Shown: piece by piece, positions 3,867 to 15,096 of the stretch | Layout: each line of letters opens with the position of its first letter | Numbering within the stretch: the stretch's first letter is position 1 | Assembly (NCBI GenBank): GCA_018266335.1 | Contig: JAFEAR010000245.1 | Coordinates: forward strand, 1-16,519 | Source: Bdellovibrionales bacterium | GTDB taxonomy: Bacteria > Bdellovibrionota > UBA2428 | DNA length: 16,519 bases | Direction of reading: 5' to 3' | Notes under the pieces: generated by a model | Database searches by the model: none | Seen by the model: only the letters and a program-made list of their open reading frames with translations | Told to the model about the DNA's origin: nothing | Program-made: the position numbers and the translations under genes

Positions 3867-4115
3867 CTAACTATCCTCTTTTTCCAATCGATCCGCCAAT
3901 CGACTCAATACCCTGACAATGTGAACAAAGGAAATACTCACAAAGCCCATGATTCCAACGGTCGTGCCCCAAGGTTTGGTGCCCAGTTTGGTGTCAATCC
4001 AGGCCCCAACCCACCAGCCAATAAGGCCGGCAACGGCAATTTCCGTACAAAGGGATAGGCCCAATCCCCCATAAATAACGTAAGACTTAACCTTACTTCG
4101 CCGAGGAGGGGTCAT
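3867..4115 (-). CDS. atpZ: AtpZ/AtpI-family small membrane protein
   Basis: An 82-residue protein with a basic N-terminus (MTPPRRSKVK) and two membrane segments: about residues 15-38, ending in GWWVGAWID, and about 50-68. The GxxxGxWxD pattern at the end of the first helix and the short loop before a second helix match the AtpZ / F0F1-ATPase assembly family found upstream of atpI-atpB in many bacteria. A role in cation transport or in F0 assembly has been proposed for the family; this sequence alone does not decide which. The start ATG overlaps the hemL stop (ATGA, 4115-4112), which implies translational coupling, and the stop abuts the atpI start. Confidence 0.78.
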   Translation of the reverse strand: MTPPRRSKVKSYVIYGGLGLSLCTEIAVAGLIGWWVGAWIDTKLGTKPWGTTVGIMGFVSISFVHIVRVLSRLADRLEKEDS

Positions 4116-5440
4116 GAACCGGAGGCCGCAACTTTAGCGAACACTTTTTGAGCCTTGGACAGGATCAGGTCTTCGCTCAGGCTCTCATGGGCCGTCGACA
4201 AAAAACAGGCCTCAAAGGGCGACGGGGGCATCATGAATCCCTCCTCAATCATCGCCCAAAAGAACTTCGTGAAAAGGTCCAAGTTTGAGTTTCGGCAATC
4301 GTCCGCATTGCGCACCGGTTGGCCGCGGAAATAGAAGCTAATCATCGAGCCTACGCGCTCAATTCGCAGCTCAACTTTTTTGTCGGCCGCCGCACGGTAA
4401 AAGCAGTCTTCAAAACGCTTGCCCACTTTTTCCAAGCGATCATAGGGGTTTTGCGCATCGATGAGGTCGAGCATCGCAATGCCGGCCGCGATGCTAACCG
4501 GATTGCCGGACAAGGTGCCGGCCTGGTAGACGCCGCCGAGTGGAGCCAAGTGGTCCATAAACTTCGCCGCACCGGCGACCGCCGAAAGAGGCATCCCTCC
4601 CCCAACAATTTTTCCAAGCGTCGTAAGGTCCGGCACAATGCCGTAAAGTCCCTGCGCAGAATGCTTATGCACACGAAGTCCTGTCATGACCTCATCAAAA
4701 ATAAGCATTGCTCCGTGTTGGTCACACAAACGCCGAAGAGTTTTCAAAAAAGAGGCCTGGGGCGGAACTACGCCCATGTTGCCCATAATGGGCTCCAAAA
4801 TTACGGCCGCAACTTGAGTGCCGTGCTTTTTAAAAAAGTCTTCAACACTCTGCTCGTCATTAAAGGTCAACGACTTAGTAAGGGCCGCTAAAGCCGCCGG
4901 CAATCCTTTAGATTCGGGAACCGAATCCATCGACAAAGTCGCCACACCACTTCCCGAATCAAAGAGGAGCGAGTCCACGTGACCATGGTAGTGACCCGAA
5001 AATTTAACGATCATTTCGCGGCCCGCAATTCCCCGCGCCAAACGAATGGCCGTCGCGCAGGCCTCCGTTCCCGTGCTCAAGGCCCGCGCCTTTTCGGCGC
5101 CCGGGATACGAGCAACGAGTTTTTCGGCCCAGGCGCATTCGCCTTCCGAACTCATTCCCAAGCAACTCGAACCTCGCACCGCTTTCGCCACGGCCTCCAC
5201 AATGGAAGGATGCGCATGACCAAAGAGGTGGGGGCCGTAGGACATCACCAAATCAATGTATGAATTGCCATCAACGTCCCGCAAAAAAGCGCCGTCGCCA
5301 TCTTTGGCAAAAATCGGATGTCCTCCCACCCGCTTAAAACTACGCACGGGAGAGTTAACCCCGCCCACGAGCACGCGTTTGGCGCGTTCATTTAATTCTA
5401 CCGACTTGGCCACTTTGATATTTGCCGGAAAACCGCTCAC
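4112..5440 (-). CDS. hemL: Glutamate-1-semialdehyde 2,1-aminomutase
   Basis: HemL is a PLP enzyme that turns glutamate-1-semialdehyde into 5-aminolevulinate, the committed precursor of haem in the C5 pathway. The 442 residues match the usual length. Landmarks: GGVNSPVRSF near residue 26, KFSGHYHGHVDSLL at 146-159, FDEVMTGLRV at 248-257, the PLP lysine K277 in TTLGKIVGGGMP, and YQAGTLSGNP. Small departures from the common form are STGTEA for NSGTEA and GMSSEGE in the gating-loop region, so a related class-III aminotransferase is a remote alternative. The start is a GTG at 5440, one base after the TPR-gene stop, with AAGGCGG upstream. The gene lies inside a replication and ATP-synthase gene string and overlaps atpZ by 4 nt, so it is probably co-transcribed with them. 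Confidence 0.94.
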   Translation of the reverse strand: MSGFPANIKVAKSVELNERAKRVLVGGVNSPVRSFKRVGGHPIFAKDGDGAFLRDVDGNSYIDLVMSYGPHLFGHAHPSIVEAVAKAVRGSSCLGMSSEGECAWAEKLVARIPGAEKARALSTGTEACATAIRLARGIAGREMIVKFSGHYHGHVDSLLFDSGSGVATLSMDSVPESKGLPAALAALTKSLTFNDEQSVEDFFKKHGTQVAAVILEPIMGNMGVVPPQASFLKTLRRLCDQHGAMLIFDEVMTGLRVHKHSAQGLYGIVPDLTTLGKIVGGGMPLSAVAGAAKFMDHLAPLGGVYQAGTLSGNPVSIAAGIAMLDLIDAQNPYDRLEKVGKRFEDCFYRAAADKKVELRIERVGSMISFYFRGQPVRNADDCRNSNLDLFTKFFWAMIEEGFMMPPSPFEACFLSTAHESLSEDLILSKAQKVFAKVAASGS

Positions 5441-8719: not shown

Positions 8720-11167
<2,448 letters not shown>

Positions 11168-11180
11168 TTAGCTCCACAAC

Positions 11181-12311
11181 CTAAACCGCCGGATTATCAG
11201 TAAGAAAACCCTTCAAAACGGTGTACAAGTTGTAGTCTGAAAAGGCCCTAGAGTCGACCATGGATAGCTCGGTTCCGGTCACAAAAACTTGCCCTTTTTT
11301 ATCGCCCAAAAAACTCAGCAATCGGGAGCGTCTTTGGGCATCAAATTCGCTCGAAAAATCGTCCACCAAAAAGATCGGAATTTCGTTTCGAACGGCTTGA
11401 ACCCATTCCGCGTGGCTCCACTTGAGCGCCAGGGCAATCATTCGCGATTGTCCTTGCGAAGCATGGGCTCGGCTCTCGAGCCCACCAATGGACAACAACA
11501 AATCATCCCGGTGAGGACCTCGGTGAGTCCACCCCGTGGCCCTGTCGGTCTCCCAGGAATCCATTATGTAACTATATAATTTTATTTGATTTAATTCGCC
11601 TTCAAAGTCCTGCCCATACCGAACTTCGGGGCGATAATCCGTAAAAAGACCCCGGACAATTTCATCAAAATGACGCGAAAAGGCCGGCCACATTTCCCGA
11701 CGTAGCGTTAGCAAGTCTAAGCCGGCCAACGTTAAAGCCTGTGTCCACGTTTCAATTTCCTGGCGATACGAAGCTCGTTTCCACGCCTCTTCGTCGCGCA
11801 GAAGCTTATTACGACTCTTTAACGCCAAATTATAACGCAGCAGGCTCTCCACGTAGCCCGGACAAACATCCGTCAGCATGTCGTCCAAAAAAGCTCGGCG
11901 GGTTTCCGGCTCCTTGCGAACCAAAGCATGGTCATCGGGCGAAAAAACAACAATCGGTACCAGTGTTCGCAGTTGAGCGCTAGGAGCTCGCTTTTCGTTC
12001 AAAAAAAAGGACCACGAACCCCGCTCCGTAAGACGCATTTCACAAATATTTTCAAAGCCACGTTCTTCGCGAACGTGCACATGAACCCCCGAAGAGCCAG
12101 TCGTAGGGGCGCCCGCGGAACGCGCTAACCAATCTTTTCTTTGCGAATAGGGTCTAAAACTCTGCCCCTTCAGGGTGACGTACAGGGCTTCTAAAATGTT
12201 TGTTTTGCCCTGGCCATTAGGTCCGACAATCCAATTGAGGCCCGCGACCGGCTTAAGCTCGACCTGCGAGAGATTCCTGAACCCGCGTATTCTGAGTTCA
12301 GAAACTCTCAC
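11181..12311 (-). CDS. recF: DNA replication and repair protein RecF
   Basis: RecF is an SMC-like ATPase that helps RecO/RecR load RecA at single-strand gaps and stalled forks. The 376 residues start with the typical LRIRGFRNL motif, then Walker A GPNGQGKTN (about 30-38). The ABC signature region SQGQSRMIALALKW and Walker B FLVDDFSSEFDAQRR lie near the C-terminus, followed by VFVTGTE. PDDHALVRKEPETRRAFLD in the middle is also characteristic. The start is a GTG at 12311 preceded by AGGA; an ATG nearby is out of frame. It lies 20 nt after dnaN and 19 nt before gyrB, the classical origin-proximal order. Confidence 0.96.
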   Translation of the reverse strand: MRVSELRIRGFRNLSQVELKPVAGLNWIVGPNGQGKTNILEALYVTLKGQSFRPYSQRKDWLARSAGAPTTGSSGVHVHVREERGFENICEMRLTERGSWSFFLNEKRAPSAQLRTLVPIVVFSPDDHALVRKEPETRRAFLDDMLTDVCPGYVESLLRYNLALKSRNKLLRDEEAWKRASYRQEIETWTQALTLAGLDLLTLRREMWPAFSRHFDEIVRGLFTDYRPEVRYGQDFEGELNQIKLYSYIMDSWETDRATGWTHRGPHRDDLLLSIGGLESRAHASQGQSRMIALALKWSHAEWVQAVRNEIPIFLVDDFSSEFDAQRRSRLLSFLGDKKGQVFVTGTELSMVDSRAFSDYNLYTVLKGFLTDNPAV

Positions 12312-12331: not shown

Positions 12332-13462
12332 TCAAATGCGCATGGGCATAACGACGATCAAATAACCCGGGTTTTCGGCGCATTTTAGCAATGCGGGTTG
12401 AAGCTTTTCACCCAAACCGATTTCAATCGTTTCGCCATCAAGGTTGCTAATCGCATCTTGGAAGAATCGTACGTTGTAGCCCGTCTTGAGTTCGGCACCA
12501 TCGTACTTGGCCGAAACTTCGTCCGTAGCCTCACCCAGATCGGGGTTGGTAGTGCTCAAAAAGATAAGGTCCTTTTTGAATTCAAAGGTAACGACTCGTG
12601 AACGATCGGATACCAAGTGAGACATCTTGCGCAGACTGGACGAAAGATCCTTGCGCGACACCATCATTTTGGACGGCAAATTGCCGGGCATAACTCGCCG
12701 AATGTCGGGATATTCGCCGTCAATGGGGCGAATCCAAAGCTGATAGTCCCCAATGTTGGTCCGGAAAAGGTTCTCGTCACAAGTGACTTCAAAGCTTTCC
12801 TCGGTGGAGCCTTCCAACAACTTCCGAAGTTCTGCCACACCCTTACGCGGCAAGATCATTCCCTTCTTAAGCTCCAAGGATCCAATACGGGAGGTCGGAA
12901 TGTCGTACATGGCTAGCCGGTGCCCGTCGGTCGCTACGGCCCGTAGTGCCCCCTCCTTGCCGTCCTGAACGCTTTCTAAAAAGATACCCGTGAGGAAATA
13001 ACGGATTTCGTCCGTACAAATGCAATGCTCCGTCTTTTGCAGGAGCTTGATGAATTCACGGGTGTTGAGCTTGGCCGTGGAAAGTTGTCCACGCGGGCTG
13101 GCTTTGAAATGCGGAAACAAATCCGAGGAAAGTCCTAGAAGTTTAAACTGACTTTTCCCCGAGCTAAGTTCCAGCCGATTCCCATCCGTAGTTTTAATAT
13201 GGATGGAGGCGTCATCGTCGCAGTCCCGAACGATGTCGAACAAGTTACGCGCCGGTACGGCGATACGTCCCGTGGATAAAGTCTTACAAGGAACCGAAGA
13301 ACTCATGAATATCTCCAGATCCGTTGCCGAGATCTGAAGCATTCCATCTTTGGCTTCTAAAAGAGCATGATTCAAAGAAGGCATCGTATTGCGCTTCTCA
13401 CTGACCGAAAGCGTAGGCGCTAATCCCCGAAGGAAGTCTTTTTTCTGAATCTTGAATTCCAT
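12332..13462 (-). CDS. dnaN: DNA polymerase III beta sliding clamp
   Basis: DnaN forms the dimeric ring that tethers DNA polymerase III and other partners to DNA. The 376 residues fit the usual size (about 366-380). Recognisable points are TMPSLNHALLEA (about 26-37), ISATDLEI, the central ATDGHRLAMYD, GEYPDIRRVMP, and the C-terminal VVMPMRI, part of the partner-binding pocket. Three clamp domains of similar length can be placed along the chain. The ATG at 13462 has only a weak upstream purine-rich site. The gene stands downstream of dnaA, separated by the 230-bp oriC spacer, and 20 nt before recF. Confidence 0.97.
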   Translation of the reverse strand: MEFKIQKKDFLRGLAPTLSVSEKRNTMPSLNHALLEAKDGMLQISATDLEIFMSSSVPCKTLSTGRIAVPARNLFDIVRDCDDDASIHIKTTDGNRLELSSGKSQFKLLGLSSDLFPHFKASPRGQLSTAKLNTREFIKLLQKTEHCICTDEIRYFLTGIFLESVQDGKEGALRAVATDGHRLAMYDIPTSRIGSLELKKGMILPRKGVAELRKLLEGSTEESFEVTCDENLFRTNIGDYQLWIRPIDGEYPDIRRVMPGNLPSKMMVSRKDLSSSLRKMSHLVSDRSRVVTFEFKKDLIFLSTTNPDLGEATDEVSAKYDGAELKTGYNVRFFQDAISNLDGETIEIGLGEKLQPALLKCAENPGYLIVVMPMRI

Positions 13463-13480
13463 GCTACCGCCAGGTCCTTT

Positions 13481-13527
13481 TCTAATTCTAAATAATACTT
13501 ATAAAGTTGTTGTTAGTTATATTGTCT
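13481..13527. promoter_or_regulatory. AT-rich stretch: candidate unwinding element and dnaN promoter
   Basis: By hand count 38 of 47 bases are A or T. On the minus strand a -35-like TAGACA (13523-13528) and a -10-like TATAAG (13498-13503) are 19 bp apart, and TATTAT (13492-13497) is a second -10 candidate, placing a possible dnaN promoter here. The same stretch is the most AT-rich part of the origin and may unwind. Both readings are inference. Confidence 0.4.
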
Positions 13528-13581
13528 AGCCGGATTCCATTGGGAAAGTCACCTAAAGTGCTATAAATATTCAACAAAACC

Positions 13582-13590
13582 GGTGGATAA
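13582..13590 (-). promoter_or_regulatory. DnaA box, one mismatch
   Basis: Minus-strand TTATCCACC differs from the consensus TTATCCACA only at the last base. It points toward the AT-rich side of the origin. Confidence 0.7.
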
Positions 13591-13593
13591 CTT

Positions 13594-13602
13594 TGTGGAT
13601 GG
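13594..13602 (-). promoter_or_regulatory. Degenerate DnaA box, two mismatches
   Basis: Minus-strand CCATCCACA keeps ATCCACA of the consensus. It is part of an inverted copy of the CCATG-plus-box module (13594-13609) and lies 3 bp from the neighbouring box at 13582. Confidence 0.5.
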
Positions 13603-13644
13603 AACATGGGAGTTACATGGGATTGTAGGGAATTCATGACTTTT

Positions 13645-13660
13645 CCATGAGTTATCCACA
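13645..13660 (+). repeat. CCATG plus DnaA-box module, copy 1
   Basis: CCATGAGTTATCCACA: the last nine bases (13652-13660) are a perfect DnaA box TTATCCACA, preceded by CCATG and two bases. It repeats 22 bp further on, with one extra base between CCATG and the box. Confidence 0.8.
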
Positions 13661-13666
13661 GGTTCG

Positions 13667-13683
13667 CCATGTAGTTATCCACA
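13667..13683 (+). repeat. CCATG plus DnaA-box module, copy 2
   Basis: CCATGTAGTTATCCACA contains a perfect DnaA box at 13675-13683 and lies 10 bp before the 3' end of dnaA. A further weak box-like TTATCCATC (13686-13694) follows directly. Confidence 0.8.
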
Positions 13684-13692
13684 ACTTATCCA

Positions 13693-14793
13693 TCACTCCG
13701 AAGCCGTTAATTGCTGCGACAATTGGGTTACCTGAGCCTTCAAAATAGGATCAGCTTTGATTTTTTCGCCCACGTATTCATGACCGTAGAGAATCGTGGT
13801 GTGGTGTTTGCCGCCTAACTCCCCACCAACGGCAGAACAGCTTAAACCCGTCAGTTCGCGGGCTAGATACATAACGATCTGCCGCGCACGGGCCACGGGG
13901 CCCTTTTTGGAAGTGCCGCGAATATCCGAAGATTTGAGACTGTAAAACTGAGCAACCGTAGCAATGATTTCATCCATAGAGATGATTTTTTGCCGTTCAG
14001 AAATGTAGTTGCGGAGCACCTTTCGCACGAGGTCCGTCGTAATGGCCTGTTTATAGAAAGCCGCGTGCCCGGCAATTTTAGTGAGCGAACCTTCGAGTTC
14101 TCGAATGTTCGCTTTGACGTAGGTACCAATTAAATAGGCAACGTCGTCACTGAGATGAATGTTATCCGTTGCTGCTCGCGACTTGAGAATCGCAACGCGA
14201 GTTTCCAATTCGGGCGGTTCAATGTTGGCAACCATACCCCACTCAAAACGGGAAATGATGCGATCGTTTACATCCGAGATTTCCTTCGGCAAACGATCCG
14301 AGGTGATCACGATCTGCTTGCTGGCATCAAAGAGGGTGTTGAAGATGTGGAAAAACTCATCCTGAGTCGACGAAGCTCTCGCCAGAAACTGAATATCGTC
14401 CATCAAAAGCACGTCGCATTTGGCGGTGAACGACTCCCGCAGCTCGTGGCGCGTGTTGTGCTGAATGGACTGAATCACTTCTTCCATGAAGCGCTGGGTG
14501 GAATAGTAGCAAATCCGTAGTTCCGGACGGGTGGTAGCCAGCTTGTAGCCGATGGCCTTCAAAAGGTGAGTTTTTCCGAGACCCGTTTTGCCCGCAATGA
14601 AGAGAGGATTATAGACGGAAGGCTTGTTAGCTACGGCTAACGCCGATGCATGGGCAAACTGGTTGCTAGACCCGACCACGAAGGTGTCGAAGGTATATTT
14701 GGGCGTAAGAAGCTCGCCAAAGAGGGTCTTAACGACCACCTCATTGGGCGCTTGGAGCCCTTCCTTCAACTCTTCAATGTTCGTCTGGATCAT
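13693..14793 (-). CDS. dnaA: Chromosomal replication initiator DnaA, lacking domain I
   Basis: DnaA binds DnaA boxes, opens oriC and helps load the helicase. Domain III (AAA+) starts at about residue 31 (PKYTFDTFVVGSSN), with Walker A GKTGLGKT (68-75), Walker B LLMDD (129-133), sensor 1 ITSD (163-166), the R178/R182 finger region and RELEGSL (231-237). Domain IV follows (about 271-366), with the DnaA signature ending GGKHHTT (327-333). The protein has 366 residues against 467 in E. coli, and the C-terminal 336 residues align without large gaps. The missing part is therefore domain I and nearly all of domain II. An in-frame TGA at 14845-14847 and the absence of ATG, GTG or TTG between it and 14793 exclude a longer start. 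The dnaA ATG has no good Shine-Dalgarno and overlaps a short ORF. Several E. coli box-contact residues are changed (see findings). Confidence 0.95.
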   Translation of the reverse strand: MIQTNIEELKEGLQAPNEVVVKTLFGELLTPKYTFDTFVVGSSNQFAHASALAVANKPSVYNPLFIAGKTGLGKTHLLKAIGYKLATTRPELRICYYSTQRFMEEVIQSIQHNTRHELRESFTAKCDVLLMDDIQFLARASSTQDEFFHIFNTLFDASKQIVITSDRLPKEISDVNDRIISRFEWGMVANIEPPELETRVAILKSRAATDNIHLSDDVAYLIGTYVKANIRELEGSLTKIAGHAAFYKQAITTDLVRKVLRNYISERQKIISMDEIIATVAQFYSLKSSDIRGTSKKGPVARARQIVMYLARELTGLSCSAVGGELGGKHHTTILYGHEYVGEKIKADPILKAQVTQLSQQLTASE

Positions 14794-14816
14794 GCGCTCA
14801 AAATCCCCATTTTCAT
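14790..14816 (-). other. Possible minimal leader ORF overlapping the dnaA start
   Basis: On the minus strand ATG at 14816 opens an 8-codon frame (MKMGILSA) whose TGA overlaps the dnaA ATG as ATGA. A second in-frame ATG (14810) has GGAG exactly 6 nt upstream, while dnaA itself lacks a spaced Shine-Dalgarno. Ribosomes could reach dnaA by coupling from this ORF. This is inference from arrangement alone; chance is possible. Confidence 0.3.
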
Positions 14817-14849
14817 CTCCACCCCAACAGCAAATGCGTACGAATCATT

Positions 14850-14878
14850 CTCTTACGGAACCCACTAAGGAAGATCAA
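14850..14878 (-). promoter_or_regulatory. Candidate dnaA promoter
   Basis: Minus-strand TTGATC (14873-14878) and TAAGAG (14850-14855) are 17 bp apart and 57 bp upstream of the dnaA ATG. The -35 is fair and the -10 weak. It lies in the only 138-bp space between dnaA and the divergent rpmH, where promoters for both must lie. I found no convincing rpmH promoter there. Confidence 0.3.
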
Positions 14879-14931
14879 ATGGTTTTAATCGCTTGATTTG
14901 GCGCTGAGACTTTGCCATAAGGGCGCCGGTT

Positions 14932-15096
14932 ATGAAGCGTACTTATCAACCTAGTCGTAGAAAACGCAAACGCGTCCATGGTTTTTTGGCCCGCATGTCC
15001 ACTCCTGGCGGTACGAAAGTCATCAGTTCTCGCCGTCGCAAAGGTCGCAAAAAATTGAGCGTATCTGTTGCGAGCAAGACGAAGCGCGCCGGTTGA
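14932..15096 (+). CDS. rpmH: 50S ribosomal protein L34
   Basis: L34 is a small, strongly basic protein of the large ribosomal subunit. The 54-residue frame starts [18 protein letters not shown], continues [26 protein letters not shown], and matches L34 along its length. The usual length is 44-47 residues; here a tail of about eight residues (ASKTKRAG) follows the normal end. AAGGG lies 8 nt before the ATG. It is divergent from dnaA and first of the rpmH-rnpA-yidD-yidC string, the common arrangement at bacterial origins. The downstream rnpA lies in the same frame after only three codons. Confidence 0.96.

Follow-up and report, generated by a model that had tools for sequence, protein, structure and literature searches.

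The window, by which we mean the whole stretch of 16,519 nucleotides analysed here, contains no N and gave no match in an Rfam search. Its dnaA gene (13693..14793, minus strand; 366 amino acids plus stop, with the ATG at 14793) lies between a divergent rpmH (14932..15096, plus strand; 54 amino acids, named by reading the sequence) and dnaN (12332..13462, minus strand), which was assigned by Pfam and encodes the sliding clamp, with which an Hda-type motif would be expected to pair; a recF-like gene (11181..12311, minus strand) with a Pfam RecF/RecN/SMC N-terminal domain completes this dnaA region. Only 16 bp (11165-11180) separate the recF-like gene from a gyrB-like gene, named by reading, so that dciA does not lie between them; in two related genomes introduced below (G001 and G003), the DciA match fell on a contig other than that of dnaN. 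Elsewhere in the window, a hemL-like aminotransferase gene (4112-5440) adjoins ATP synthase-type genes (names again by reading), an unusual neighbourhood for it.

A Pfam search of the window DnaA recovered AAA+ domain III (PF00308, residues 29-189, 207.8 bits) and the DNA-binding domain IV, Bac_DnaA_C (PF08299, residues 274-339, 76.3 bits), and did not find domain I (DnaA_N, PF11638). The score against TIGR00362 was 425 bits, above the cut-off of 343.9, with an alignment covering model positions 100-437 only, and the five DnaA chains of known structure that include an AAA+ domain aligned to the window protein from its residue 27 or 28 onwards. Judged by its two core domains and its equivalog score, the protein is a DnaA; it lacks the DnaA_N domain of the four-domain form. 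The Pfam and TIGR00362 results bear out an earlier note on this DNA, which had described 366 codons, complete domains III and IV and about 30 residues before PKYTF. That 30-residue N-terminus (14704..14793, minus strand) includes an element, [VI]KTxxGExL, which is conserved across the clade of short DnaAs described below.

The same note had held that the upstream frame is closed and that rpmH leaves too little room for domain I, and both points were confirmed. The frame is interrupted by TGA at 14847-14845 and again at 14877-14875, and the 17 codons from 14844 to 14794 include no ATG, GTG or TTG; an ATT codon at 14835, a rare start, would add 14 residues if used. Because the divergent rpmH starts at 14932, 138 bp remain beside dnaA (14794..14931), a gap with two in-frame TGA stops that is too short for domain I. 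The remaining two minus-strand frames of this gap are likewise broken by stops, and an upstream frameshift or a hidden domain I was rejected on this ground.

Two perfect DnaA boxes (TTATCCACA, at 13652 and 13675, plus strand) and one box with a single mismatch (TTATCCACC, at 13582, minus strand) lie in the gap between dnaN and dnaA (13463..13692), and near 13 kb the GC skew of the window climbs from negative values to roughly zero. Given these boxes and the skew change, the gap is probably oriC, and the window DnaA is predicted to bind the DnaA boxes and to open it.

Short DnaA among the Bdellovibrionota

When the window DnaA was used in a protein search, the best 120 of 7,992 matches included 62 proteins (P0002-P0063) that were 61-88% identical to it, and the nearest full-length DnaA with DnaA_N among these best 120 was P0067, at 50% identity. 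In the resulting set of 63 (P0001-P0063), 28-58 residues precede the PKY position in 60 proteins, and 71, 83 and 94 in the other three; alignment of the relatives' DnaA, which the earlier note had proposed as a check, thus yielded no long DnaA reaching into the upstream gap and 62 others that are likewise short. Precomputed domain annotation recorded DnaA_N in none of 67 short-DnaA proteins, a count that includes four fragments of 236-288 residues (P0064-P0066 and P0068) left out of the alignment. Of the 63 aligned sequences, either 62 or all retain each of the Walker A and B, arginine finger, sensor II and DnaA-box residues. The N-terminus is itself conserved, with G26 and L29 invariant in 63/63 and P16 and T23 present in at least 90%, and an hhalign comparison of it with domain I gave no match (score 9.5, 0.3% probability). 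Six of the 63 (P0050, P0053, P0054, P0056, P0058 and P0060) carry QE[IVT]F.F peptides near the start, which resemble a clamp-binding motif.

In a search across Bdellovibrionota genomes, DnaA was matched in 229 of 240, and 150 genomes were listed with one row each. Among these 150, scores typical of short DnaA were seen in only two genomes, G001 (694 bits) and G003 (666 bits), which belong to one class; the next score was 438. The open frame of DnaA runs to at least 436 codons in 146 of the 150, the exceptions being G001, G003, G031 and G197. Three genomes were considered as further carriers of a short DnaA and rejected: in G031 the frame ends at the contig end, in G197 the stretch contains N's and has its domain I in the adjacent frame, and the DnaA of G075 has domain I. 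The canonical DnaA profile match starts at position 2-8 in 45 of 46 translated loci of the phylum; in the exception, L089, it starts from position 32, with 46 residues ahead of the match. The short-DnaA clade itself was placed in the Bdellovibrionota by source names, namely P0054 (Bdellovibrionota bacterium) and L001 (labelled Bacteriovorax stolpii).

An annotation or assembly error could in principle create a short N-terminus; fragmented contigs are common in metagenomes, and the dnaA of G001 is cut by a contig end. Against such an artefact stand the 62 further proteins that share this start region, and the closed upstream frames together with an rpmH only 67-138 bp away in three loci (67 bp in G003, 124 bp in G001). 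The recurrence of the short N-terminal region in these proteins, 61-88% identical to the window DnaA, excludes a chance frameshift, and we give an artefact virtually no credence. On the strength of these comparisons of sequence, the short DnaA is a true DnaA that lacks domains I and II, and this trait is fixed in one class of Bdellovibrio-related bacteria. The protein shares with the four-domain DnaA (TIGR00362) domains III and IV, the Walker A and B motifs, arginine finger, sensor II and DnaA-box loop, as well as the place between rpmH and dnaN and the TTATCCACA boxes; unlike the four-domain protein, it has neither domain I nor domain II, and a short conserved N-terminal peptide stands in their place.

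DnaA2, a second DnaA-like protein of the same class

Four genomes of the class of G001 were searched (G001-G004), a set distinct from the window organism's own genome. Each of the four encodes a second, highly divergent DnaA-like protein, here called DnaA2, of 482-537 residues with the starts taken; its occurrence in 4/4 genomes of the class with short DnaA is new here. The earlier note had suggested looking for a second dnaA, and such a gene is indeed present, but it is a divergent paralogue and not a second normal dnaA. A phoH-type gene lies 31-161 bp downstream of dnaA2 in 4/4, and an RNase E/G-type gene precedes it in the two loci where this was viewed (both named by reading). Short DnaA and DnaA2 were seen together in two of the four genomes. 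The remaining two, G002 and G004, are also without dnaN, so that the contig with oriC is probably missing from them, and a real loss of dnaA was rejected. From these relatives, the window organism is predicted to carry dnaA2 as well.

The TIGR00362 alignment to DnaA2 begins at model position 14-18 and ends at 433-436 in 4/4, at 103-123 bits against the cut-off of 343.9, and TIGR03420, the model for Hda/HdaA, gives 28-40 bits against a cut-off of 194.8 in 4/4; DnaA2 is DnaA-like without being filed as DnaA, and it does not score as Hda. The PF00308 matches in G001-G004 are confined to DnaA and DnaA2. Hda matches PF00308, and as no further PF00308 protein turned up, no Hda was seen in these genomes. 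In databases, a first profile search yielded 36 DnaA2 members, past which the score drops from 435 to 105 bits, and a second search added 20, giving 56.

A quick tree (81 rows) placed DnaA2 in one clade and short DnaA in another, with DnaA2 on a long branch, a program warning of long-branch joining with L087, and no root inferred. Nine phylum genomes (G006, G014, G029, G035, G051, G060, G064, G068 and G079, among loci L048-L085) pair a canonical DnaA with a diverged full-length second DnaA of another clade. These resemble DnaA2 in that a diverged additional DnaA accompanies a more typical DnaA; they differ in that, for all nine, the profile match extends into domain I of either copy, and in the three genomes searched with PF11638 both copies exceed its cut-off. 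The idea that DnaA2 is this second DnaA was rejected because the two form separate clades in the quick tree, in which DnaA2 has a long branch. Waddlia is also said to carry two copies of dnaA in one genome.

To characterize the N-terminus of DnaA2, a profile was built from 27 of the 28 rows of its alignment (A2), leaving out P0153, which partly lacks this region. Compared with DnaA domain I (96 rows), this profile scored 36.2 (84% probability), where the best of 200 column shuffles reached 14.7; compared with 51 DnaAs from the protein search, the phylum's own loci excluded, the match was weak (22.4, 15%; best shuffle 16.8). The 20 later members behaved similarly, scoring 41.6 against domain I (best of 100 shuffles 19.2) and, weakly, 18.25 (2%; best shuffle 17.5) against domain I of other phyla only. 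PF11638 stays below its cut-off in DnaA2; its best weak match in G001 (14.4 bits, E 0.06) falls inside the DnaA2 N-terminal region, whereas the one weak match in G004 (E 0.44) lies outside DnaA2, and G002 and G003 have none. At the position aligned, by reading, with E. coli DnaA F46, which we take to be a DnaB contact, 21 of 28 DnaA2 proteins have F. We describe this region as domain I-like, a wording chosen because the match lies well above shuffles once DnaAs from the phylum itself are in the comparison and is weak with those of other phyla only, with PF11638 below its cut-off.

A free-standing domain I protein, which the earlier note had envisaged, did not materialize: DnaA_N exceeded the Pfam cut-off nowhere in G001-G004, for a model of limited sensitivity, which reached that cut-off in just 8 of the 14 genomes used as controls. 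Separately, in another genome of the phylum search, G123, a DnaA_N match of 48.5 bits was seen in a 153-codon open frame apart from that genome's dnaA (L096; contig C7, 13406-13588, minus strand); it is either a free-standing domain I or a broken piece of dnaA.

Ahead of the AAA+ domain, DnaA2 has a glutamine that is invariant in the 28 aligned proteins, within motifs such as QVSLPL and QLPMPL; the clamp-binding hexapeptides given for Hda and HdaA are QLSLPL and QFKLPL (PMC3836487). We scored this motif 40-80 residues before Walker A in 35 first-set DnaA2 proteins (36 less one without an N-terminus), the 20 later members and the 77 scorable of 100 control DnaAs. The loose pattern, Q..[LIMF].[LIMF], written after the first set had been viewed, occurred in 34/35, 16/20 and 19/77, respectively, and a strict pattern in 28/35, 7/20 and 4/77; anywhere in the N-terminus, the loose pattern was present in 32 of the 77 controls. 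Three of the later members (P0172, P0173 and P0175) have no glutamine at the motif position, and in P0174 the motif is one residue longer. With such an Hda-type motif, most DnaA2 proteins may bind the clamp. Walker A, the arginine finger and the sensor II arginine are kept in 28/28, and where DnaA has the Walker B pair DD, DnaA2 has E and then N (23), D (3) or G (2).

The main rival to the division of labour proposed below takes DnaA2 for a clamp-bound regulator, an analogue of Hda with extra domains, so that loading would need no domain I and DciA would bring DnaB to the open complex or the short-DnaA AAA+ domain. DnaB was found in 4/4 genomes of the class and DciA in 4/4, three of them over the cut-off; DciA has been described as a widespread helicase operator (PMC5109545). 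The Hda-type motif of most DnaA2 members points the same way, as does the replacement of the second acidic Walker B residue by N or G in 25 of 28, and no other PF00308 protein of G001-G004 could take the part of Hda. In E. coli DnaA, the AAA+ residue His136 reportedly directs DnaB, a further point in favour of loading without domain I. DnaA2 and Hda have in common a DnaA-family AAA+ domain, an arginine finger and, mostly, a QLSLPL-like hexapeptide before the AAA+ domain; unlike Hda, DnaA2 adds a domain I-like part and a DNA-binding domain, and its TIGR03420 scores are low. A mere analogue of Hda gives no account of why DnaA2 keeps a domain I-like part while DnaA has none, and we regard this reading as rather unlikely.

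DnaA boxes and repeats in front of dnaA2

Perfect DnaA boxes occur within 450 bp upstream of dnaA2 in all four genomes (3, 2, 1 and 1 in G001-G004). The same upstream regions, shuffled 500 times each, contained at most 0.004 boxes on average, and genome densities predict fewer than 0.01 per 450 bp. Genome-wide, G001-G004 have 19, 16, 28 and 7 perfect boxes, against 8, 5, 26 and 5 for the pattern read backwards; the box is hardly commoner than this control in G003 (28 to 26) and G004 (7 to 5). Groups of three boxes are found in G001 at just two places, oriC and the region upstream of dnaA2, and at the other groups of perfect boxes (G001 C12, G002 C67, G004 C3 and G003 C10) no common gene was recognised by eye. 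The short DnaA may, on this pattern, bind the boxes in front of dnaA2.

Just upstream of these boxes lie A-rich repeats (AAAAATAGCT / AAAAACAGGC), at L041 1299-1325 (plus strand), L043 1256-1292 (plus), L044 3122-3158 (minus) and L042 3229-3265 (minus). With a pattern written after the sequences had been viewed, AAA[TC]AG[CG], 2, 3, 2 and 4 copies were counted beside the dnaA2 boxes of the four genomes, at multiples of 10 bp, and none in the three oriC regions checked. The recognition loop of DnaA2 is also changed: KD[PA]S replaces the HHTT-type DnaA-box loop in 28/28 (D[PA]S[TSA] at HHTT). The A-rich repeats are perhaps a binding site of DnaA2.

Both the altered loop and a repeat present at dnaA2 and absent from the oriC regions checked would suit a transcription factor, or the initiator of some other element, descended from DnaA, in which case the short DnaA would work without domain I. 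The conserved arginine finger and sensor II arginine and the alignment with DnaA across the AAA+ domain speak against such a descent into another role, as do the clamp-like motif and the DnaA boxes at dnaA2 itself, and we consider it improbable.

A possible division of labour in initiation

In the literature, domain I figures as the hub through which DnaA interacts in oligomerization and in the loading of the helicase (PMC8287927), and removal of the first 24 residues from E. coli DnaA is reported to leave it unable to complement a dnaA46 mutant (PMC5835720). We propose, as a reading that we think somewhat probable, that two proteins share the work of initiation in this class, a short DnaA that binds the origin and a DnaA2 linked to it by DnaA boxes, the latter serving domain I functions, clamp-dependent control, or both. 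With domain IV, the short DnaA would still recognise the origin, and with domain III it would still carry out ATP-dependent assembly and melting; it would bind and open oriC, and also bind the boxes ahead of dnaA2, placing dnaA2 itself under DnaA control. DnaA2 would join the short DnaA through AAA+ contacts and supply the role of domain I, that is, bridging and helicase recruitment; in addition or instead, DnaA2 tethered to the clamp might make DnaA hydrolyse its ATP, as Hda does.

This division of labour builds on draft genomes and on four observations, namely the short DnaA across its clade, DnaA2 in 4/4 genomes, the domain layout of DnaA2 by profile comparison, and the DnaA boxes upstream of its gene; from these we infer the protein contacts, the box binding and the function of DnaA2. 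Several points tell against it: the two genes were seen together in only two of the four genomes, the domain I match is weak with other phyla and PF11638 stays below its cut-off, the strict clamp motif is present in just 7 of the 20 later members, and the DnaA box barely outnumbers its backward control in G003 and G004. In addition, the tasks of activator and inactivator would pull DnaA2 in opposite directions, and the data favour neither. In a stricter form, the initiator would be an obligatory pair, in which a core DnaA reads and melts the origin, a clamp-tethered DnaA2 with the only domain I handles both helicase recruitment and DnaA inactivation, and dnaA2 is under DnaA-box control; we put this forward tentatively, as possible and on balance doubtful.

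The earlier note had left two options, that the organism loads its helicase without DnaA domain I or that another protein supplies the function. The evidence leans towards the second without proving it; the first is a possible route through DciA and the AAA+ domain, with no domain I at all, given DnaB and DciA in 4/4 genomes. Among the matches listed in a literature search of open-licence papers, we recognised no report of a DnaA without domain I or of a DnaA2-like protein.

A natural lineage whose DnaA is without domain I, with a candidate supplier encoded elsewhere, would make the division between melting and recruitment testable with natural proteins. One account states that, as of 2023, no initiation regulator had been identified in B. 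bacteriovorus (PMC11318664). If the proposed division of labour is true, DnaA2 would be a candidate initiation regulator among the relatives of Bdellovibrio.
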